Shown piece by piece: positions 1 to 58,543 of a stretch of 64,000 nucleotides of DNA (within the stretch, counting starts at the first letter, position 1; each line of letters begins with the position of its first letter). A program made the translations under genes and the position numbers. The notes under the pieces are model-generated. The model was not told where the DNA came from and did no database searches. It saw nothing but the letters and a program-made list of their open reading frames with translations. Origin of the DNA: Pelovirga terrestris (GTDB taxonomy: Bacteria > Desulfobacterota > Desulfuromonadia > Desulfuromonadales > Geopsychrobacteraceae); contig NZ_JACWUN010000002.1 of assembly GCF_014773365.1 (NCBI RefSeq), positions 1 through 64,000 of the forward strand. The letters run 5' to 3'.

Positions 1-141
1 AAGGCCGATTTTTTCTAAATCCGACATTTTTCACCCTGACGTAACGTAAAAACAGGGTATAGGCAGGAAAAAATATCTTAAAAAAGACGTCGCGACCATC
101 TATGCTTTTTCAGGTGGTGGATTTGGGCTACGGAGGACGAA

Positions 142-279
142 TTGCAACCTAATGAGCCAAATGATACCCTTATTAATCACGCCTCTGATGGAAAAACCCG
201 TCTTGATGTCCAGCTGGACCGCGAGACTGTCTGGCTGTCCCAACCGCAATTGTCAGCAAGTATGGAGTTTTTAATATGA
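142..279 (+). pseudogene. RhuM-type N-terminal fragment (45 codons)
   Basis: An open frame from a TTG at 142, preceded by a good GGAGG ribosome binding site (132-136, 5-nt spacer), gives 45 residues and stops at TGA 277-279. The centre reads DGKTRLDVQLDRETVWLSQP, which resembles the opening of RhuM/virulence-protein family members (typically 'DGKT-ievrl-e-ETVWLtQ-qmaelF'). RhuM proteins are about 330 aa, so only the extreme N-terminus remains. The stop overlaps the ATG of the next gene (ATGA), so a foreign 5' end has become a translationally coupled leader. RhuM is named from the remembered motif only; no search was run. It could still be translated as a short leader peptide. Confidence 0.55.
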
Positions 280-1862
280 CCCTGGATCAAGCACTGAATG
301 CCCTGAAGCCCTTTTCCCCGAAAGTCCCAAGAGATGCGCTGAATTTCATCCGCAATAACTGGCATGAAGCTGAGCCGGTTTTGCTGGCGGAGCTGGATCG
401 GTGCATAGATCAACCCCCATTGGACAAAGAACGGACAGCACTGTTTTTATATTCACTATTTCTGTGTGCAGAAAGGCAAAGTGACGCAGCTTTTGAACGT
501 TATGTCAGGATTCTCCGTCTGCCAAACCTGATACTAAGTGACCTGCTTGGGGACATCCTGACTGAAAACATGAAGGAGATGCTGGCGCGCACCTGCGCCG
601 GGCGGATCAACGAGATCAAATCCCTCATTGAGGATGAAACCCTTTATGAATTCGCCCGCTGCGCGTCTTTACAGGCACTCTATGTTCTGGTGGGGACAGG
701 GGGTGTCGAATTAAATGAGATGAAGCGCTATTGTCTCGATTTGCTGGAACACAGATTGGAACACAGGCCCTCCTATGTCTGGGATGACACCGTCTCACTT
801 GCGGAGGACCTGGGTCTCCACGAAGCGCTACCCTGGATTGAGCGTGCCTATCAGCGGGGGTGGGCTCATCCGGGCTCTCAAACCCTTGAAGAGGTTAAAA
901 CTGGATTGAATCGTTCTGTTGTGGAAAAACAGTTGACCCGCATTAAGGACAAATCAGAGTCTTTTAAGGCCGAGGGTGAGATGTCCTTTTTTGTCCAAAA
1001 TTGGGATAAGCAGAACGATCATCCCGATCCTGATTCTGTGGAGCTGTTGCGGGAGCCACGCGCGGCACGCCTGAAAAAATCCTTACCGAAAGCCGTTAAG
1101 ATCGGTCGTAACGAGCCCTGTCCCTGCGGGAGTGGAAAAAAATACAAGAAATGTTGTATTGATCAGCAGAATCAAGCACTTATAGAAGCTACCTCGGTAT
1201 CTGCCGAGGGGTTGGAACTAGCCGATGAATGGCTTGCTGCCGGGTATTATTACCAGGATCAGCATTGGCCGCATCGCGCCCTGGACTGCTGGTGGAATGC
1301 CTGGCAGACAGCTCAAGATTTTCTTCCCGAGGGCGTTGATGATCCTGGAAGCAGAGAATATGAAGGGCTGTTTGCAAACTGTGATTTCTTCAGTAACTGG
1401 TTGCAGGACTATCAAAGCCTGATCGAAGAAAATCTGCATCACAATCTTTTTGCTGTTAAAAATGGCCTGCAATTTTGTCGGCAGGTTATTGAACGCTTCC
1501 CGGCCATGAATCCGGTCTTGCAGAATAATTTACACGAGAGCATATTTTATCTTCTGTTGGTGCTTGGCAAATCGGACGAAGCTTTTTCACACATCCAGGA
1601 ATTCATTAAACAACATCCAGATACCGCACAGGGGTATGCGATTCTGTCGAGCGCATTGAGTTTTGACAGTCAACGCTTCAATCTTCGCCCTGATTTTCAA
1701 CGGGCACAGCAGTTGCTGGTACAAGCACTCGAAAATGCCACGGATTGTGAAGGGTGGGATATCGAGATGCGGTTGGCAGATTTGACAGAAGAGCTTGCTG
1801 CCGTTCAGGATATTCATTCCTTGGGCTTTGAGAAGAACTTCCGGCAATGCAAGCATATTTAA
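276..1862 (+). CDS. DUF1186 and SEC-C domain protein
   Basis: A 528-aa soluble protein with no signal peptide or membrane segment. Residues 1-250 are helix-rich and look like the DUF1186 family. Residues 273-292 carry a SEC-C zinc motif (GRNEPCPCGSGKKYKKCC), the same metal-binding tail found at the end of SecA. Residues 300-528 are helical and TPR-like. SEC-C modules bind zinc and dock on partners such as SecB or the ribosome; the role of this fusion is unknown. The ATG overlaps the stop of a RhuM-like fragment, so translation is probably coupled to that remnant. The flanking remnants suggest horizontally acquired DNA. Confidence 0.7.
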   Translation: MTLDQALNALKPFSPKVPRDALNFIRNNWHEAEPVLLAELDRCIDQPPLDKERTALFLYSLFLCAERQSDAAFERYVRILRLPNLILSDLLGDILTENMKEMLARTCAGRINEIKSLIEDETLYEFARCASLQALYVLVGTGGVELNEMKRYCLDLLEHRLEHRPSYVWDDTVSLAEDLGLHEALPWIERAYQRGWAHPGSQTLEEVKTGLNRSVVEKQLTRIKDKSESFKAEGEMSFFVQNWDKQNDHPDPDSVELLREPRAARLKKSLPKAVKIGRNEPCPCGSGKKYKKCCIDQQNQALIEATSVSAEGLELADEWLAAGYYYQDQHWPHRALDCWWNAWQTAQDFLPEGVDDPGSREYEGLFANCDFFSNWLQDYQSLIEENLHHNLFAVKNGLQFCRQVIERFPAMNPVLQNNLHESIFYLLLVLGKSDEAFSHIQEFIKQHPDTAQGYAILSSALSFDSQRFNLRPDFQRAQQLLVQALENATDCEGWDIEMRLADLTEELAAVQDIHSLGFEKNFRQCKHI

Positions 1863-1864
1863 AT

Positions 1865-1888
1865 CAGACGTCTCTGACGACACGTCTG
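1865..1888 (+). other. hairpin just after the SEC-C gene
   Basis: Seven-base arms CAGACGT (1865-1871) and ACGTCTG (1882-1888) flank a 10-nt loop two bases after the stop codon. No clear T tract follows, so it is only a weak terminator candidate. The remaining 200 bases up to the next gene show no supported gene. Confidence 0.3.
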
Positions 1889-2087
1889 GCGCTTTATCCG
1901 CTGGAGTGTGGGAATGACGAGAGCACAAGATAGGAATATTCGGTAGACCCACGGTGGTGTCGACTGGCAGAGGGTCAAGCCGGTACTGAAGGAATACTTT
2001 GATGAACGGTTTTATGTCATCAGCATGTGAATAGAGCTACCGAAAAATTGAATCCATCGGGACTGCATTCATAGAGAGGGTTACATC

Positions 2088-2588
2088 ATGTTTTCAGACA
2101 CCCACCCCCTCGGAACTGCGTACGCATCCCTTGACGATACGACCTTTGTTCCCCTGTTCCGGGCAGCGTGTTTTTGCGGCAGGGTTCGCTACGAGGTGAG
2201 CGCTGAGCCGGTGGATGCCAAACTCTGCCATTGCAAAGCCTGTCAAACCCTGCATGGGGCGCCGATGCAATGGGCTGCTCTCTTTCACAAACAGCATGTA
2301 CGCTTCACCGCCGGGACAGATCTGTTACGCTTTTACTATAGTGATCGGGACCTCATCGCGCGCGTGCTGCCCTGCAAGGTCAGTTGCAGCCACTGCGGAA
2401 CCCTGATAGCGGATGAGGGGCGCCGGATGTGGCTCGCTTTTCCTGCGCTGTTCGATTTTGGACAGCCGGCCACGATACCGCAAAGTTTCAAACCGACCTG
2501 CCATATTTTCTACGGCCAGCGGGTGATCGATATTGATGATGATCTGCCTAAATGGTTGGGACACAAACATCATTCTGCCCGTTGTTGA
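2088..2588 (+). CDS. GFA-family (CENP-V/GFA) zinc protein
   Basis: A 166-aa protein of the glutathione-dependent formaldehyde-activating enzyme (GFA, DUF636) fold. The zinc ligands expected for the family are present: C28-x-C30-G, C47-H-C49-x-x-C52 and C96...C100-x-x-C103-G. The first pair and the last CxxC normally hold a structural zinc and the middle triad the catalytic one. Family members have been linked to S-hydroxymethylglutathione formation, but most are uncharacterised, so the substrate is unknown. The first 25 residues precede the domain and may be an over-extended start. The upstream AGAGG is a plausible ribosome binding site. It lies in the accessory patch. Confidence 0.75.
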   Translation: MFSDTHPLGTAYASLDDTTFVPLFRAACFCGRVRYEVSAEPVDAKLCHCKACQTLHGAPMQWAALFHKQHVRFTAGTDLLRFYYSDRDLIARVLPCKVSCSHCGTLIADEGRRMWLAFPALFDFGQPATIPQSFKPTCHIFYGQRVIDIDDDLPKWLGHKHHSARC

Positions 2589-2629
2589 TCCTGTTCGTGC
2601 GGACGTTTTTCACAGTGTGTCCAAAAACA

Positions 2630-2655
2630 TTTTATCGTCAAATCTGACGATAAAA
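2630..2655. repeat. perfect 11-bp inverted repeat
   Basis: TTTTATCGTCA (2630-2640) and TGACGATAAAA (2645-2655) are exact reverse complements with a 4-nt AATC loop. It lies about 40 bases after the GFA stop codon. The T-rich arm is on the 5' side in both directions, so it is not a standard terminator. It could be an operator or a mobile-element end. Confidence 0.6.
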
Positions 2656-2766
2656 GCCTGATGAAGCCTGTAACTCGACAACTTTGACGACCTTTGTGCC
2701 TTTGTTTTGTGTATTAATTCGCTTGCTTTGGCGAAAAAAGATTTAATTCTGGGTATTATTCGCCAT

Positions 2767-2994
2767 ATGAGCGACAAGATACTTTTGGCAGATATCGGCC
2801 ATCGTCTGGGCCGCCGGCGCTGGGACCTCACCGGGCGCGTCAGCCCAGTCCGTTCGAGATCGGCAAGCAGGTGGTGGAAAACTACATATGCAATCTCTCG
2901 GAGCCCTGGCGCATGACCTTCAATATTGTCGCGCACAACCAGGATGATCATGTCAAGAATATTGCGTTTTTGATGGACAGGAAGGGGCGCTGGT
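2767..2994 (+). pseudogene. hipBA toxin-antitoxin remnant
   Basis: Two fragments in different frames. From ATG 2767 the frame gives MSDKILLADIGHRLGRRRWD, like the start of HipB-type XRE antitoxins ('dIlaelG-rLr--Rl'). From about 2841 a second frame gives residues including SPFEIGKQVVENY and FNIVAHNQDDHVKNIAFLMD, matching the HipA kinase core 'N-l--NqDdH-KNisFLmd-G-W' that contains the catalytic and metal-binding Asp/Asn region. The HipA similarity stops at GRW, where marC begins on the other strand. The N-terminal half and C-terminus of HipA and most of HipB are missing, so neither is functional. The HipA call is fairly firm from motif memory; HipB is weaker. Confidence 0.6.
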
Positions 2995-2995
2995 A

Positions 2996-3589
2996 TCAGG
3001 CCAAAAAGTTTTTAAGTCCGGTAAAAAAGATCTGGGCGGCAATCGCCGAGACAAAGAGTCCGGTCAGCTTGGTCAGGATGGTCAGGCCCTGTTGGCCGAG
3101 AACCTTTTCCAGGCGTCCGGCAATCAAGAGTAATCCTCCCAACACCACAACCGCGCTCAACAGGGCCAGTCCGGCAACAAACTTCTCGCCCAGAGTAACA
3201 AGATCAGCTCCCAAAACCAGCATGACCCCGATTGTTCCCGGACCAACGGTGATCGGTATAGCCAGGGGAACAACGGCAACATCTTCCCTTGAGGTTTGTG
3301 GTGATACTGTGGCTTTACCTTGAATCATTGAAACAGCAGAGAGAAACAGTACGGCCCCGGCACCAATACGGAAAGCGTCGAGAGTGATGCCGAAGAGGGC
3401 AAAAATGTAGGTGCCGAAGAAAAACAGGACAAAGCAGCTGATGGCAACGGCCAGGGAGATTTTGACGGCTATTCTGCGCCGTTCCGCCAGGGAGTCATCC
3501 TTGGTCAGGGACAAAAAAGCGGAAATGACGAAAAAAGGAGTAAAAATAAGAAAGACTTTAAGAAAAAGATTAATATACAAAGTTGCCAT
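2996..3589 (-). CDS. MarC-family integral membrane protein
   Basis: A 197-aa, very hydrophobic protein with about six predicted membrane segments, the usual size of the MarC/UPF0056 family. It opens with a segment ending in PFFVISAFL and has the family's central loop with PLAIPITVGPGTI. Despite the name, MarC proteins have no proven multidrug role and their substrate is unknown. On the minus strand GGGAG stands 7 nt before the ATG. Its 3' end abuts the hipA remnant with no gap, so the remnant's truncation point coincides with this gene's stop codon. Confidence 0.85.
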   Translation of the reverse strand: MATLYINLFLKVFLIFTPFFVISAFLSLTKDDSLAERRRIAVKISLAVAISCFVLFFFGTYIFALFGITLDAFRIGAGAVLFLSAVSMIQGKATVSPQTSREDVAVVPLAIPITVGPGTIGVMLVLGADLVTLGEKFVAGLALLSAVVVLGGLLLIAGRLEKVLGQQGLTILTKLTGLFVSAIAAQIFFTGLKNFLA

Positions 3590-3746
3590 TCAATAACTCC
3601 CAGCCTCTTATCAAGCTGTTACGTGAGACAAGTTCCACTTCCAACTTACCACCGTTTCAGCCAAAACAGTATCTGTTCACAATTGTTCAGCGCCGAAGCC
3701 CCAACCCTGTGGCATGGATGAGGCTGGATTGGTGACGTCGGGAACG

Positions 3747-3911
3747 TTAGGAAAGATCCGGCGAGCGCAGTGGTGTAATGACAATTCTGTTACCACAGGC
3801 CGGGCACCGGTAGATTTCACAACCAGTGCAGGCAAAACAGTTGCCGCACAGCCTTTTGAGGCTGTTACGTGGGTGTTTGGCAGAACAGTGCTTGCAGGTG
3901 ATGGTTTTCAT
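3747..3911 (-). CDS. 54-aa cysteine-rich zinc-ribbon-like protein
   Basis: The frame MKTITCKHCSAKH... carries four CxxC-type pairs (CKHC, CGNC, CTGC, CPAC) in 54 residues, as expected for two small zinc knuckles. The open frame extends upstream through tRNA-Leu, but that extension is a tRNA translation artefact, so the start is placed at ATG 3911. The ribosome binding site upstream is poor. A terminator lies just upstream, so the gene would need its own promoter, which I could not identify. No known family was recognised. Confidence 0.45.
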   Translation of the reverse strand: MKTITCKHCSAKHPRNSLKRLCGNCFACTGCEIYRCPACGNRIVITPLRSPDLS

Positions 3912-3943
3912 GGGCCGGATGGTTGTTCGCACAAAAGAGAGAT

Positions 3944-3977
3944 AAAAAAGCCCCCAACGAATCGGAGGCTTTTTTAG
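3944..3977 (-). terminator. rho-independent terminator of tRNA-Leu
   Basis: Read on the minus strand, an AAAAAAGCCTCC arm pairs with GGGGGCTTTTTT, leaving a short loop and a run of T. It lies directly downstream of tRNA-Leu and before the cysteine-rich small gene. Confidence 0.75.
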
Positions 3978-3982
3978 CAATG

Positions 3983-4067
3983 TGGTACCGAAGGCCGGAA
4001 TCGAACCGGCACGGCTCGCGCCATCGGTGTTTGAGACCGACGTGTCTACCAATTCCACCACTTCGGC
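3983..4067 (-). tRNA. tRNA-Leu (anticodon CAA)
   Basis: An 85-nt tRNA with encoded CCA. The acceptor starts GCCGAAG and pairs with CTTCGGT before ACCA; the D-arm contains the GGTAGACA typical of class II leucine tRNAs, the anticodon loop reads TCTCAAAC giving CAA, there is a variable arm, and the T-arm is GGTTCGATTCC. It decodes UUG. Confidence 0.95.
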
Positions 4068-4078
4068 ATGGTTCGACG

Positions 4079-4106
4079 ATTATAGTGAGCAGGATTTGTT
4101 TGTCAA
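4079..4106 (-). promoter_or_regulatory. sigma-70 promoter of tRNA-Leu
   Basis: On the minus strand a consensus -35 TTGACA (4101-4106) and a consensus -10 TATAAT (4079-4084) are spaced by 16 bp. The -35 box contains the TGA stop codon of pabC (4103-4105), so the tRNA promoter is embedded in the end of the upstream gene. Confidence 0.85.
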
Positions 4107-4936
4107 GGGTCTATGCGCAGGGAAATACGTTTGTAGATGTCTTTCCATAATCTTCCCCGGTTGATCGACTTACCGTCAATGGTGTTGACCGGAACCAGAT
4201 CGATCAGGGAGTTGCAGATAAATACCTCAGTTGCCTTGATGGCATCTGCCAAGGGCAGGGAGGATTCACCGCAGAGGATACCAAGTTCACCTGCTGCGTC
4301 GATCACCTGGTGGCGCATGATACCGTTCAGTACCAGATTGCCGAGGGGTGGGGTAACAAGCTGGTTGTCGATGATGGCAAAGATGTTGCTGGTTGCTCCT
4401 TCGAGCAGGTTGCCGTTGCGATCGAGAAAAAGAGCTTCTTCAACCTCTTGCTGACGGGCATGGTTGCGGGCGTAGAGGCAATCGGCGTAGTTGCCGAGTT
4501 TAAGCTGGGGTAGATGAGAAAATGGATTAACGCGTTGGTTGGGGGCAAGACAGCAGTTGAACCCTTGCACGCGGCGAGGTTCATCCATTTCGTTATAAGA
4601 AACCGCCGTGAGCAGGAACCATCCTTGCTTGTGGGCAGGGCGTACCAGGCCCTGGTATGACCCCCGGCTTAATGTCAGACGGATGCGAGAAGCCGCAGCC
4701 GTCAGGCGCATGGACAATTGTCTTATTGCTGTTGCAATGGCTGAGCGTGGGCAGGGAAACTCAAGCAACTGTGCTGATTGCTCAATCCGATCCAGGTGCT
4801 GATCAAGGAGCAGGATCTGCTGTCGGCGCGCCTTGATCGTCTCAAAAAGGCTGTCACCATAGAGAAAAGCACCATCATTGACAGCTACCCGGGCTTCTTC
4901 CTGCGAGATGAATTGTCCGTTAAGGCAGGTCAGCAT
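4103..4936 (-). CDS. pabC: aminodeoxychorismate lyase
   Basis: A 277-aa fold-type IV PLP enzyme of the PabC/branched-chain aminotransferase family. PabC converts 4-amino-4-deoxychorismate to p-aminobenzoate and pyruvate for folate synthesis. The Schiff-base lysine is K146 in LPQLKLGNY, and the cofactor-binding EGATSNIF and the N-terminal DGAFLYGDSLFETI are present. It starts 3 nt after the pabB stop, with GAGAGG 6 nt before the ATG, so the two form an operon. Branched-chain or D-amino-acid transaminase activity cannot be excluded by sequence, but the pabB neighbour argues for PabC. Confidence 0.85.
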   Translation of the reverse strand: MLTCLNGQFISQEEARVAVNDGAFLYGDSLFETIKARRQQILLLDQHLDRIEQSAQLLEFPCPRSAIATAIRQLSMRLTAAASRIRLTLSRGSYQGLVRPAHKQGWFLLTAVSYNEMDEPRRVQGFNCCLAPNQRVNPFSHLPQLKLGNYADCLYARNHARQQEVEEALFLDRNGNLLEGATSNIFAIIDNQLVTPPLGNLVLNGIMRHQVIDAAGELGILCGESSLPLADAIKATEVFICNSLIDLVPVNTIDGKSINRGRLWKDIYKRISLRIDP

Positions 4937-9985: not shown

Positions 9986-9992
9986 GTTCATG

Positions 9993-10094
9993 GTAGTGGG
10001 TAGTGGGTAGTGGGTAGTGGGTAGTGGGTAGTGGGTAGTGGGTAGTGGGTAGTGGGTAGTGGGTAGTGGGTAGTGGGTAGTGGGTAGTGGGTAG
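9993..10094 (+). repeat. 7-bp tandem repeat, 14 copies
   Basis: Fourteen exact copies of GTAGTGG (9993-10090) plus a partial GTAG fill the gap between selB and selD, starting 7 bases after the selB stop. Seven is not a multiple of three, so every frame on the plus strand meets TAG stops. Copy number should vary by slippage and would change the distance between the selB stop and the selD ribosome binding site. It is too short and lacks spacers, so it is not a CRISPR. Confidence 0.97.
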
Positions 10095-53247: not shown

Positions 53248-54894
53248 ATGTCAGCGGGAGAACCAAGCGCAAAACAAGTGACACAAGCAGGACATCGCAG
53301 CCTGATCTGGTATCTGGTCTGCCGGACTGCGGTGATCACCCTGGTTCTGGGTGGCGCGGCATTTTTCTATCTCCACGGCAACCTCGCCTATTCAGTCACC
53401 CCGCTGTTTTTTCTGGTTGGCATCTCCTATGTCCATGCGATTGTTGTCGCTCTGATCCTGCCGCGGCTGAACAATCTCTGGATTTTAAATCAGGCACAGA
53501 TCGTCTGGGATCTGCTCCTGGTGTCGGCGCTGATTCTCACCACCGGCGCGGTGGAGAGCATTTTTTCGTTCTTTTATCTGCTGGTCATCATCTCGGCCAG
53601 CTTTCTTCTATCCCGGCGTTTGACGATCCTTGCTGCCGCCAGTTCTTCCATTCTGTTTGGCGGCATCCTGCTGTTGCAGTTTTATCAGTTGCTCGGCCCT
53701 TTTCAGGTTCCCACTGCCACCGCCGATGCCGTTTTCCTGAATTCCCTGTTTGTTCATCTGGTCGCTTTTTTCCTGACCGCTATGTTAAGTGGGACCCTGG
53801 CAGAACGCTGGCGCCAGAGCGAAGCCCTCTATCAGCGCAAGAGCATTGATTTCTCCGAGCTGGAGCGGATGAACCGGCTGATTCTGTCCCATATCAGCAG
53901 CGGTGTGATGCTGATCAACCCGCAGGGACGGATCCGTGCGTTCAACCTTGCCGCCAGCGACATTACCGGATTCTCCCTGCAGCAGGTGTACGATGCCCCG
54001 GCGGCTGAATTGTTTCCTGAGTTCAACAAGATCGTCACTCCTGACACGGAGCCGGTTAACCGCGCCGAGGGGTTTTTTGCCCACCCGTCCGGGGAACGCC
54101 TTTCTTTCGGATATGCGACAACCCTGGTGAAGGGAAATCATGGTGAACCCCTGGGAACCCTCGTGACCTTCCAGGACTTAACCCAGCTCAAAAAGATTGA
54201 AGAACAACTCAAACGTTCTGATCGCCTTGCCGCCATCGGCCGGTTATCGGCCGGCCTGGCCCATGAAATCCGCAACCCGCTGGCTTCCATCAGCGGTTCA
54301 GCTCAACTGCTTGGTGAAAATGAACAATTAAGTGCTGAGGATAAGCATCTGCTGACCATCATGGTCAAGGAAGCGGATCGGCTGAACCATCTGCTCACCG
54401 ATTTTCTGGCCTTTGCCCGACCCCATCGCCCACAGAAAACCGTCGTTGATATGGCTGTCATGATCGCTGAATTAGGCCGCATGCTCCAGCGTGATCTGCG
54501 CTTTCAAGAGATTGATGTGCAGATGAACGCAGCGCCACCCTGTCAGGTCTCCCTCGATCGTAGCCAGATCTGGCAGGTGTTGTGGGATCTGTCAATTAAC
54601 GCGGCCGAGGCAATGAAAGGGCAGGGAACGCTGCTGATAACCTATGCCCACGGGAATCCCTGGACCTTAACCATTGAAGATAGCGGCCCCGGCATTGCAC
54701 CCGAGATCAGGGAGCGGATTTTTGAGCCGTTTTTTTCAACCAAGGACAAAGGTACCGGCCTGGGGCTGTCGACCGTTTACTCGATTATTGAAGCCCACGG
54801 TGGGACCATTCGTGCTGAAAGATCAACCTTGGGGGGCGAACGCTTCATTATGAGTTTTCCGCATGCAGCAGGGGGAGAAGATGACCAACCATAG
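53248..54894 (+). CDS. pilS: sensor histidine kinase PilS
   Basis: A 548-aa kinase with about six N-terminal membrane helices (residues 15-185), a PAS domain (about 205-320), HisKA with H339 in GLAHEIRNPLAS, and a HATPase domain ending in DKGTGLGLSTVYSIIEAHGG. PilS senses pilin levels in the membrane in other bacteria and controls PilR. Its stop overlaps pilR. Confidence 0.93.
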   Translation: MSAGEPSAKQVTQAGHRSLIWYLVCRTAVITLVLGGAAFFYLHGNLAYSVTPLFFLVGISYVHAIVVALILPRLNNLWILNQAQIVWDLLLVSALILTTGAVESIFSFFYLLVIISASFLLSRRLTILAAASSSILFGGILLLQFYQLLGPFQVPTATADAVFLNSLFVHLVAFFLTAMLSGTLAERWRQSEALYQRKSIDFSELERMNRLILSHISSGVMLINPQGRIRAFNLAASDITGFSLQQVYDAPAAELFPEFNKIVTPDTEPVNRAEGFFAHPSGERLSFGYATTLVKGNHGEPLGTLVTFQDLTQLKKIEEQLKRSDRLAAIGRLSAGLAHEIRNPLASISGSAQLLGENEQLSAEDKHLLTIMVKEADRLNHLLTDFLAFARPHRPQKTVVDMAVMIAELGRMLQRDLRFQEIDVQMNAAPPCQVSLDRSQIWQVLWDLSINAAEAMKGQGTLLITYAHGNPWTLTIEDSGPGIAPEIRERIFEPFFSTKDKGTGLGLSTVYSIIEAHGGTIRAERSTLGGERFIMSFPHAAGGEDDQP

Positions 54895-56257
54895 CTCACG
54901 CATCCTGATCGTCGATGATGAACAAAGTTTACGTGACATGCTGACGGTGTTATTGCAGCGCGAGGGGTATCAGATTGATCAGGCGGTCAATGGGGAAGAT
55001 GCCCTCACAAAGATGGCAGAGAACACCGTTGATCTGATCATCAGTGACATCAAGATGCCGCGCTTGACCGGTATTGATCTGTTGCGGCGTTTGCGTGAGC
55101 AGGAGAATGATACCACCATGATCATGATAACCGCTTTTTCTTCCACCGAAGAGGCGGTAGAGGCAATGAAGCTCGGGGCTTACGACTATATCACCAAGCC
55201 ATTTAAAAATGATGAAATCCGACTGGTGGTCAAAAATGCCCTGGAACGCCGTCAGTTACAACGCGAAAATCTTCAGCTCAAACGCCAGCTCAAAGAACGC
55301 TTTTCCTTCAAAAACCTGATTGGGGAGAGTGATGAAATGACTCGGCTGATTGCTCTGCTTGAGCGGGTTGCGCCGAGTCGGGCCAATGTGTTGATCACCG
55401 GCGAGAGTGGTACCGGCAAGGAGCTGGTCGCCCAGGCCTTGCATCTGGGTAGCGAGCGTAAAAACCACCCCTTTGTCGCCATTAACTGCGGGGCAATCCC
55501 TGAAAACCTGCTGGAAAGTGAACTCTTTGGTCATGAGCGCGGCGCTTTTACCGGAGCTGACAAAAAAAAGCAGGGGTTGTTCGAAAGCGCCCATTTAGGA
55601 ACCCTGTTTCTTGATGAAATCGGCGAACTGCCTATGGGAATGCAGGTCAAGCTGTTGCGGGTATTGCAGGAGCGCGAATTCCGACGGGTGGGCGGAACCA
55701 GCAACATTCCCCTCGATATCCGCCTGATTGCTGCCACCAATCAGGATCTGTCAGCCAATATCACGCAAGGAACCTTTCGTGAGGATCTCTATTATCGTCT
55801 CAACGTCGTGACCATCGAGCTGCCCCCCTTGCGTGAACGGCGCAGTGATATTCCTTTGCTGATTCAGAACTTTTACCACCAGAAAACCGGTAGTGACAAC
55901 AACTACCAGATTGATAAGCACGCCCTGGAATTGCTGCTCAACTACGACTGGCCCGGTAACGTGCGTGAGCTCGAAAATCTGGTCGAGCGTTGTCTGGTGT
56001 TAGGTGATCAGCAAGTGCTCACCGTCGACTCTCTGCCGCCGCAACTGCAGAAAAAGAGATCGTCCAGCCCGACCGAACTGCACGAGATACCGGCAGGATT
56101 CAAGATGGAAGAGTGGCTGGAGGACCAGGAACGTCAGATTATTCTCGCCGCCCTGCAGCAGGCCGATGGCGTACGCACCAGGGCCGCTGAACTGCTCGGC
56201 ATCAGCTTTCGCCAGATCCGTTATCGCCTTGATAAGCTTGGTATCGGCGATGGTTGA
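54881..56257 (+). CDS. pilR: sigma-54 response regulator PilR
   Basis: About 458 aa: receiver (phospho-Asp in [11 protein letters not shown]), AAA+ domain with Walker A GESGTGKE and the sigma-54 contact GAFTGA (in [13 protein letters not shown]), and a Fis-type helix-turn-helix ([19 protein letters not shown]). The ATG 54881 has GGGGGAG just upstream; an in-frame ATG at 54863 is less likely. It overlaps pilS by 14 nt. It should activate sigma-54 promoters of pilin genes; one candidate lies at 58693. Confidence 0.95.
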
Positions 56258-56699
56258 AAAGCATCACTTGCGATTCAAAAGATTTCGACGCGGTACAAGT
56301 CAACGGCGAAAAAATTTCCCCAAGTCCACTACCTAGTACCCAGTTCATGGTGTTGAGGCATTTGACACCGCGTATGATTTAAAGGTTTTCAACGCGACAA
56401 AGAGGTTCTGGTGATTGCTGTTATCAGCCCTTCATAGATTCTGATAGCGGCTAAAAGAACTTCAAAAGACGATTGGCCGCGATGAAAATCTATCAGAATC
56501 GGTTGAAACCCCAAAGGCTTCTCGACACGACGGGGGAGCGGTCTTATTTTACGACTAAAAATCGTTGGTTTGATCGCTAGAAGGCACTACCCCGCCTCTG
56601 TCCCCCTTGCTTGTGTGGTTGCCGCCGGCGATTTACCGTTGCTCCTAACCACCATCATCGCTATGATGATCCGTCACATCAACACCCCGGAGGGAACCC
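56258..56699 (+). other. 442-base gap after pilR
   Basis: The major pilin gene pilA would be expected here by comparison with Geobacter but no frame contains a type IV pilin start (FTLIELLIV-type). It holds an 11-bp inverted repeat (56437-56500) and, from about 56655, the leader of the coiled-coil array. No gene is supported. Confidence 0.6.
56437..56500. repeat. 11-bp inverted repeat with nested GCGGC/GCCGC
   Basis: GATTCTGATAG (56437-56447) and CTATCAGAATC (56490-56500) are exact complements 42 bases apart, with GCGGC (56447-56451) and GCCGC (56476-56480) nested inside. The whole could fold as a cruciform or long hairpin. Confidence 0.7.
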
Positions 56700-56960
56700 A
56701 TGGTAAAAGACCACCTGCAGATCATTCCGGAAGATATCAACAGCAAGTTCAATGTTGTCATTGAATGCTACAATGCCCTTGATCGCAAAATTGACAACCT
56801 CGAAAAGCGCCACGATGAACGCTTTGACCTGCTCGATTTCAAGATCGAGACCGTCAATAATCATCTATCGAAAAAAATCGACGCCGTCGCCGCCGATCTC
56901 AAAGCCCACCGTGCCGACACCGAAGCCCATGGGAACATTTATCGGGTGAGGGAATCGTAG
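56700..56960 (+). CDS. coiled-coil array protein 1 (86 aa)
   Basis: An all-helical, highly charged, cytosolic small protein starting MVKDHLQIIPEDINSKFN. A heptad-patterned coiled coil runs from about residue 20 to 75, with KKIDAVAADL. The C-terminal signature AHRADTEAHGNIYRV is shared by all three genes. No catalytic motif or known domain was recognised. GGAGGG precedes the ATG. It is the shortest member of the array and may be a subunit of an oligomeric bundle. Similar small hypothetical proteins with this tail are believed to occur in related bacteria; this is from memory, not checked. Confidence 0.65.
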   Translation: MVKDHLQIIPEDINSKFNVVIECYNALDRKIDNLEKRHDERFDLLDFKIETVNNHLSKKIDAVAADLKAHRADTEAHGNIYRVRES

Positions 56961-57060
56961 TCAACAGCGGCGGGCGGTGCCATTAACCGGTCGATGGGTC
57001 GGCTCCCAGCAACCATCATCAATATGATGGACCGTCACATCAACACCCCGGAGGGAAACC

Positions 57061-57363
57061 ATGCAAAAAGACCACCTTGAAGTGATTCTCGAAAACATGG
57101 ATAAAAAATTAGATATTATTATCGAGGGTTATAATGCCCTTGATCGTAAAATTGATTCTGTTCGTGATGAACTCAAGCAGGATATTTCTTTGCTCGATTT
57201 CAAGATCGACACGGTCAACAATCATCTTTCGAAAAAAATCGATGCCGTTACCGCAGACCTGAAAATCACGGACGCAAAGGTTGATGGCGTAGCCGCCGAC
57301 CTGAAGGCCCACCGCGCCGACACCGAAGCCCACGGGAACATCTATCGGGTGAAGGAATCGTAG
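57061..57363 (+). CDS. coiled-coil array protein 2 (100 aa)
   Basis: Starts MQKDHLEVILENMDKKLDII, with the same layout as the preceding gene. Compared with that protein it has an extra 14-residue (two-heptad) insert KITDAKVDGVAADL before the shared AHRADTEAHGNIYRVKE tail. The spacer before it is about 96% identical to the one before the third gene, showing recent duplication. Function unknown. Confidence 0.65.
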   Translation: MQKDHLEVILENMDKKLDIIIEGYNALDRKIDSVRDELKQDISLLDFKIDTVNNHLSKKIDAVTADLKITDAKVDGVAADLKAHRADTEAHGNIYRVKES

Positions 57364-57462
57364 TCAACAGCGGCGGGCGGTGCCATTAACCGGTCGATGG
57401 GTCGTCTCCCAGCAACCATCATCAATATGATGGACTGTCACATCAACACCTGGAGGGAAACC

Positions 57463-57852
57463 GTGCAAAAAGACCACCTTGAAGTGATTCTCGAAAGTAT
57501 CGACAGCAAATTCAATCTGGTTCTCGAGGGCCATGATGCCCTACGTCGTGAGATCCGTGAAGAGGCTGAAAAAAACGAAGAGCGTTTCAAGTTGCTCGAT
57601 TTCAAGGTCGATACCGTCAATGATCATCTTTCGAAAAAAATCGATGCTGTAGCAGCTGATCTGAACGCCACAGATAAGCGGCTAAACAACAAGATTGACT
57701 CCGTTGAGGAGCGCCTGACGAAAAAAATCGATGCCGTTACCGCAGACCTGAAAATCACGGACGCAAAGGTCGATGGCGTAGCCGCCGACCTGAAAGCCCA
57801 CCGCGCTGACACCGAAGCCCATGGAAACATTTATCGGGTGAAGGAGGGGTAG
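57463..57852 (+). CDS. coiled-coil array protein 3 (129 aa)
   Basis: Starts at GTG (VQKDHLEVILESIDSKFNLV) by alignment with its neighbours; the open frame reaches 57397 but that extension is leader. The coiled coil is longest here, with an additional segment of about 29 residues (DLNATDKRLNNKIDSVEERL...). The last about 45 codons are nearly identical in DNA to those of the second gene, implying recent duplication or gene conversion. The start codon change ATG to GTG may lower its translation. Function unknown. Confidence 0.65.
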   Translation: MQKDHLEVILESIDSKFNLVLEGHDALRREIREEAEKNEERFKLLDFKVDTVNDHLSKKIDAVAADLNATDKRLNNKIDSVEERLTKKIDAVTADLKITDAKVDGVAADLKAHRADTEAHGNIYRVKEG

Positions 57853-57857
57853 CCGCC

Positions 57858-57886
57858 GGGGACTGGCTCCGTAGGTGCCTGTCCCC
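57858..57886. repeat. REP-like palindrome after the coiled-coil array
   Basis: GGGGAC (57858-57863) pairs with GTCCCC (57881-57886), with GGC/GCC nested inside. Elements of this form are widespread in intergenic DNA of many bacteria. It may also end transcription of the array, although no T run follows. Confidence 0.5.
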
Positions 57887-58036
57887 ATGTTTGCTGCCCT
57901 GACGACCCGATGACCTCGGAGAATGGCAAAACCCGGGCGCAATGAATTGCTCCCCTACAGTTGATATACAATATTCCGATTTTCTCCGCGCCTCTCCGTT
58001 AAGTCTTTCTCCTGTATTCTGAATTCCTCCCCGATA

Positions 58037-58543
58037 TCATTTCCAATCCCCACTACCCGTAGCGTCACGATGAATCACCGGGCGGCCGATTTTAGCAACG
58101 GACGTGCCGGCGCGAAACCTGACGACGGAATCAGGGTCGATGGTGCAGATGTATAGGGTATTGGATGTGCCGTTGGGGTTGAACTGGATGCGCCGCTGGC
58201 CGCTACTGGAAGTGCAGTTCGCCAGCGCTCGCATGATAATCCCCCCTTGATGCTCTTCAAAGTGGCGGACAACCTCCCAGGTGGTGCTGTTGTCAGCAAG
58301 GTTGCCACGTTCCAGCCAGTAACGCTGGGTATCGAGATCAAACGCCACCTGATACTCGATATTCTCCGTCACCGCCTGGGTGCGGGCATGACGCAGCGCC
58401 AGCATGATACTGCGGGCCGCATCCTTTTGCTGTGCGTTTTTGCGCATGGCGAAAAAGTTAGGTGTCGAAATGGCCACGAGAATCGAAAAGATTGCCAGAC
58501 AAATAATCAGCTCCAGCAGACTGAAGCCTCCCCCCCTCTTCAT
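58037..58543 (-). CDS. GspH/FimT-like prepilin (minus strand)
   Basis: A 168-aa prepilin. The PilD cleavage site and N-terminal helix are GGGFSLLELIICLAIFSILV, with cleavage after Gly and Glu at +5. The C-terminal globular part resembles GspH/FimT minor pilins. ATG 58543 is preferred because GAGGGGGGA lies 6 nt upstream; the upstream ATG at 58558 overlaps that site. It is the only pilin of the cluster on the minus strand, divergent from the second FimT-like gene. Confidence 0.82.
   Translation of the reverse strand: MKRGGGFSLLELIICLAIFSILVAISTPNFFAMRKNAQQKDAARSIMLALRHARTQAVTENIEYQVAFDLDTQRYWLERGNLADNSTTWEVVRHFEEHQGGIIMRALANCTSSSGQRRIQFNPNGTSNTLYICTIDPDSVVRFRAGTSVAKIGRPVIHRDATGSGDWK

Follow-up and report, generated by a model that had tools for sequence, protein, structure and literature searches.

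A tandem array of coiled-coil genes between pilR and the minor-pilin genes of Pelovirga terrestris, probably derived from a mobile cassette of toxin–antitoxin islands

The window analysed here, a stretch of 64,000 nucleotides of Pelovirga terrestris (contig NZ_JACWUN010000002.1, positions 1 to 64,000), contains three head-to-tail tandem open reading frames on the forward strand, downstream of pilR (54881-56257, + strand), which is the left neighbour of the insertion site and lies outside the element. Gene 1 (56700-56960, +) encodes 86 residues, gene 2 (57061-57363, +) 100 residues and gene 3 (57463-57852, +) 129 residues; the first two start with ATG, whereas a GTG start was assigned to gene 3 at 57463, its mechanical open reading frame opening upstream at 57397. 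The open reading frames and the alignment agree with the original prediction of three adjacent genes with a common start, body and tail, except that the start motif given there, QKDHLEVI, does not describe gene 1, which reads MVKDHLQII instead. The common elements are a start xKDHLxxI, a body LLDFKxxTVNxHLSKKIDA and a tail AHRADTEAHGNIYRV[RK]E; the conserved C-terminal tail of gene 3 (AHRADTEAHGNIYRVKE(G)) is encoded at 57796-57849 (+), and the same tail is found at 56904-56957 in gene 1 and at 57307-57360 in gene 2 (both +). In the alignment, gene 1 is 70% identical to gene 2 and 69% identical to gene 3, and the three differ by two gaps only, one of 14 residues (present in genes 2 and 3) and one of 29 more (gene 3). 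The spacer between genes 1 and 2 (56961-57060, +) is 96% identical over 104 bp to that between genes 2 and 3 (57364-57462), indicating that the array results from tandem duplication and not from chance. Pairwise dN/dS values are 0.17-0.47 among genes 1-3 and 0.09-0.25 among three paralogues on contig C3, showing that the proteins of this family are under purifying selection.

An upstream block with a -10-like TATGAT box and a GGAGGG ribosome-binding site (56641-56699, +, ACCATCATCGCTATGATG...CACATCAACACCCCGGAGGGAA for gene 1) is found in similar form before genes 1, 2 and 3 and before a paralogue on contig C4. We regard it as a putative promoter, with candidate boxes proposed solely from their conservation, so that each gene would carry its own; a sigma-70 consensus scan gave no call above chance, this block included. 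Two dispersed repeats flank the array, a small one downstream of gene 3 (57922-57966, GGGCGCAATGAATTGC...), also present near two paralogue loci (L027 and L028), and a hairpin-forming one upstream (56430-56510, core GCCGCGATGAAAATCTATCA at 56476-56495), to which we return below. No Rfam model matched positions 56200-58100.

The gene products are predicted to be coiled-coil rods, as had been proposed. AlphaFold2 modelled gene 3 (single chain, 49 sequences) as one continuous helix from residue 3 to 119 with a mean pLDDT of 93, and this helix, together with the 7/11-residue periodicity of the motif spacings, is what characterizes a coiled coil. The final 10 residues fall outside the helix with low confidence: in the model, the helix stops around HRADTEAH and is followed by a disordered but conserved YRVKE tail. 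Across 49 members, one Lys in the N-terminal cap and the H-R-x-D-T-E-A-H stretch at the C-terminal end are invariant, and the His, Thr and His of the latter appear to occupy core positions of the coiled-coil register. The highest 19-residue hydropathy among 75 members is 0.89, and no hydrophobic segment is present. Each product would be a soluble rod of about 11-17 nm, which may self-associate in parallel through polar cap layers, proposed to be His/Gln near the N-terminal end and His-Thr-His at the C-terminal end, and the flexible RVKE tail could serve as a docking peptide for a partner. The pattern is similar to that of the trimeric stalks Lpp, YadA and AtaA, with weak matches to solved chains (E 0.02-0.3), but the homology is not significant, and the present family lacks a hydrophobic signal segment and has the HRxDTEAH end.

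The distance between the two caps, taken from the E of the EG/EC motif to the H of HRADTEAH, is 48 residues in gene 1, 62 in gene 2 and 91 in gene 3. The suggestion that the genes grow by whole heptads holds for the first step, since the 14 residues that gene 2 has in addition to gene 1 (57247-57288, +, VTADLKITDAKVDG) correspond in the alignment to 2 x 7 residues and keep the register. It does not hold for the insert that lengthens gene 3 over gene 2 (57649-57735, +, from alignment and motif spacing), whose 29 residues are no multiple of seven: its KIDAV, KIDSV and KIDAV motifs are spaced by 18 + 11 residues, that is 7+11+11. The seam of a coiled coil is maintained by two lengths, the heptad and the hendecad. 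In the 75 members, 161 distances separate one [KR][IVLM]Dx[VLIFM] motif from the next, and all of them are sums of 7 and 11, against 41% in shuffled sequences, and the same is true when each spacing length is counted once per protein (105/105 of the form 7a+11b). The commonest spacing is 11 (62 cases), followed by 7 (40), 14 (26) and 18 (10), so that hendecads prevail and inserts in other genomes are not confined to multiples of seven, which goes against growth by heptads alone. Near-perfect 11-residue arrays are found at L109, L113, L099 and L097 and in a 185-residue paralogue at L028, other members have repeats of 7, 14, 15, 18 or 25 residues, and two members of one array (L081) differ by a single 11-residue unit. 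Between two fixed ends, the middle of these proteins therefore changes in coiled-coil register units of 7 and 11 residues; such changes would arise by recombination between 33-bp and 21-bp repeats. At two loci (L092, 104-611; L106, 5715-6306) the repeats lie instead on the N-terminal side, in 15-residue (LKLDDQSKDFQHKLD) and 22-residue units.

The family extends well beyond this locus. The genome of the window carries six more family genes at four other places, all away from the pil genes, giving nine copies at five places in total; of 136 genomes from the order, an alignment search showed 32 to be carriers. In a sample of the phylum, 67 of 395 genomes gave a match at E <= 0.001, the weakest of which are probably coiled-coil noise, and an alignment scan placed 62 family loci in named genomes, including Geobacter, Citrifermentans (Citrifermentans bremense) and Geomonas. 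In line with the earlier view that no known domain is present, no Pfam or NCBIfam model matched the window proteins above its curated cut-off, and searches of Pfam, NCBIfam, PHROGs and PADLOC with these and other members returned coiled-coil noise only. No PDB chain matched by sequence below E 0.02, a Foldseek search of the predicted helix against the PDB gave no match, no relative was found in viral contigs and phage collections, and tblastn of gene 2 found none on plasmids apart from Borrelia. The plasmid matches (H1-H20) are Borrelia Bdr proteins, which share 39-50% identity with the coil; their 11-residue KID repeats apparently account for the likeness. A tree of the caps (65 columns, calculated without support values) separates two subfamilies, of MEKDHLE and EDFQHKLDLVVEGHQ type, which occur mixed within the arrays of L079 and L081. 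Many fragments and stop-bearing copies also exist, as expected for genes that are gained and lost. In a genome of the same genus (G001, locus L042), a coil gene decayed by stop codons adjoins intact-looking MNT and HEPN genes.

The upstream hairpin repeat lies 205 bp before gene 1 and occurs once in the window, where none is expected. Genome-wide, its core is present in 11 copies (at most one mismatch), and each of the 11 has a coil, MNT or ParE gene no more than about 410 bp away, although the 500-bp surroundings of such genes make up only 1.4% of the genome. This ties the array to toxin–antitoxin (TA) islands. The full copies are imperfect palindromes of 100-111 bp. The same palindromic repeat separates the genes of a dense island at L168 (positions 1-4400, genome G000, contig C12), which contains Phd-RelE, RHH-RelE, MazEF-like and DUF-type small genes. 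Evidence for movement comes from genome G079, where two islands 1.4 Mb apart share blocks that are 96-99.8% identical but in reshuffled order, including a 464-bp block that contains only a coil gene, is 99.4% identical in both islands, and has sharp ends with a dispersed repeat at its start. A dispersed repeat of about 185-213 bp in this genome borders TA and coil blocks (L134, 9300-9512; L135) and differs in sequence from that in the genome of the window. The arrangement is reminiscent of integron arrays, in which single genes and TA cassettes are likewise interspersed with palindromic hairpin repeats of about 100 bp (attC); here, however, the repeat ends (GCCGCGAT.../...ATTGCGGC) are by inspection not the attC cores RYYYAAC/GTTRRRY, and the coil cassettes carry their own upstream blocks.

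The paralogue loci are rich in TA genes, comprising MNT-HEPN pairs, RHH-RelE/ParE, HicA-like, HipBA and PDDEXK_3 (GxxExxY) genes. In eight genomes, picked for carrying coil genes, a 5-kb distance from the coil genes takes in 21 of 61 MNT genes (0.59 expected), 7 of 70 ParE genes (0.76 expected) and 4 of 18 PDDEXK_3 genes (0.15 expected), but none of 70 control glycosyltransferase genes (0.58 expected). Since the clustering of genes makes single-gene p-values too small, the safer figure is that for coil clusters, 12 of 20 of which have a neighbour of a tested TA family, against 1.5 expected. Around the remaining 8 clusters, none of the tested TA families is represented within 5 kb; the same applies to the array in the window, which is tied to the islands only by its flanking repeat and by the equivalent site in relatives. 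Other copies lie between flagellar genes, in a methylmalonyl-CoA operon and near polysaccharide genes. Overall, the family combines a patchy distribution (32/136 genomes) with clustering in TA islands, as judged from the MNT, ParE and PDDEXK_3 enrichment and from the movement of blocks.

The site after pilR was compared with that of relatives, with gene names assigned by reading of the translations. In the sister genome G003 (PilR 86% identical), pilR is followed by a Phd-type antitoxin gene, a transposase gene, a PDDEXK_3 gene and a PIN toxin gene; in G006 it is followed by Phd-PIN and FitAB-like modules and then, about 3.4 kb downstream, by pilA; and in G008 pilA comes directly after pilR. 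As a location, the array thus occupies the pilA site, as had been noted, and the TA genes in G003 and G006 identify the gap between pilR and pilA as an insertion spot for TA-type genes. Position in this gap is uninformative on pilus function.

We consider it probable that the array arose by local duplication of a solo, mobile cassette of TA islands inserted between pilR and the minor-pilin genes. Genes of the family are copied around chromosomes one at a time, into the small islands that also house TA genes. What the element is and how it moves and grows are well supported. For the product, a self-assembling rod is the best reading of sequence and model, and its biochemical role is a proposal: the likeliest function, which we put forward tentatively, is that of a protein acting on its own, in an accessory role or one of stress/defence type. 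Its rod would cluster or display the tail, and the gene would be kept in the way TA modules are, by gain and loss, and not by serving the neighbouring operon. TA association by itself assigns no function. Islands and cassettes of multiple TA pairs have been described (PMC2701414), and these, like the solo Uma2 family found among them, resemble the present genes in being small, mobile and patchy, in clustering with unrelated TA pairs and in forming tandem paralogues. The coil gene differs from them in that it is not part of a two-gene pair and encodes a pure coiled coil, with no nuclease, nucleotidyltransferase or DNA-binding domain. The word "coiled" does not occur in that work, and in the open-access literature searched we found neither a description of this family nor of a coiled-coil resident of TA islands.

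A possible, though doubtful, alternative is that the rod is itself a solo or third component of TA systems, with an addictive or regulatory role as a toxin-like or antitoxin-like protein or as a scaffold that clusters TA proteins. The very close placement beside several TA types speaks for this, as does the resemblance of the tandem paralogue cassettes to the solo Uma2 family (PMC2701414). However, the genes do not form the two-gene operons of type II TA systems, being single genes or tandem paralogues with their own upstream blocks; they have no constant partner, adjoining MNT-HEPN, RelE/ParE, HicAB or none; the products have no catalytic or DNA-binding domain; and the adjoining MNT-HEPN, HicAB and RHH-RelE pairs look complete without the coil gene.

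It is unlikely that the lengths form a code, under which unequal lengths among co-resident copies would restrict each rod to pairing with its own kind, with both caps in register. The nine copies in the genome do all have different cap-to-cap distances, from 44 to 125 residues, and both ends are polar and conserved, but across all genomes equal lengths within a genome occur at chance level (4 of 85 pairs, permutation mean 3.9). Co-resident copies thus avoid equal lengths no more than by chance, which leaves the code without positive support. Quite unlikely, in our view, is the broader proposal that TA islands have in the coil genes a novel class of element, solo or third-component, which encodes rods that recognise themselves and carry a conserved tail for regulating or clustering TA proteins. 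In this proposal, the genes would travel together with TA modules through a cassette system not yet recognised, with the roughly 100-bp palindromic repeat as its recombination site.

A role in the pilus is not expected. That the graded coils serve the type IV pilus machinery encoded at the locus, as its ruler or scaffold, could be argued from their position between pilR and the minor pilins and from the pilA gene of G008, but we judge it very improbable: there is no pilin N-terminus, PF07963 (N_methyl) matching nearby only at the neighbours at 58466, 58835, 59257 and 59769, the 75 members have no hydrophobic segment, six of the nine copies in the genome, at four of the five places, lie away from pil genes, and TA genes are found at the site in the sister species G003, which gave no family match. 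Kinship with the Borrelia Bdr proteins is equally improbable: both are multigene families, the 11-residue coiled-coil repeats here look like the KID type of Bdr, only Bdr genes were matched on plasmids (E 5e-8, 45% identity) and, of 49 members compared with the Pfam model PF02524 (KID repeat), 4 gave a match at E <= 0.01 (best E 6e-8), but the resemblance lies in the KID-type coil, and the present family, found in Desulfuromonadales and neighbours, is chromosomal, lacks a C-terminal membrane segment and appears to have different conserved ends. The likeness is probably due to convergence between coiled-coil repeats of 11 residues.

Accounts of TA islands usually present them as toxin and antitoxin pairs. 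On the reading of the array as duplicates of a mobile cassette, a non-enzymatic rod would be a recurring third resident of such islands that moves alone, and the gene with its palindromic repeat offers a marker for finding how these islands are built. The family evolves in length strictly as coiled-coil geometry allows, combining steps of 7 and 11 residues. For the study of coiled-coil assembly, it provides a set of natural rods that differ in length while their ends stay constant.

Elsewhere in the window, positions 9992-10094 hold 14.7 perfect copies of the heptamer GGTAGTG between selB-like and selD-like genes; by eye, the frame of the latter appears to start upstream with an in-frame TGA, as in a selenocysteine-type SelD.
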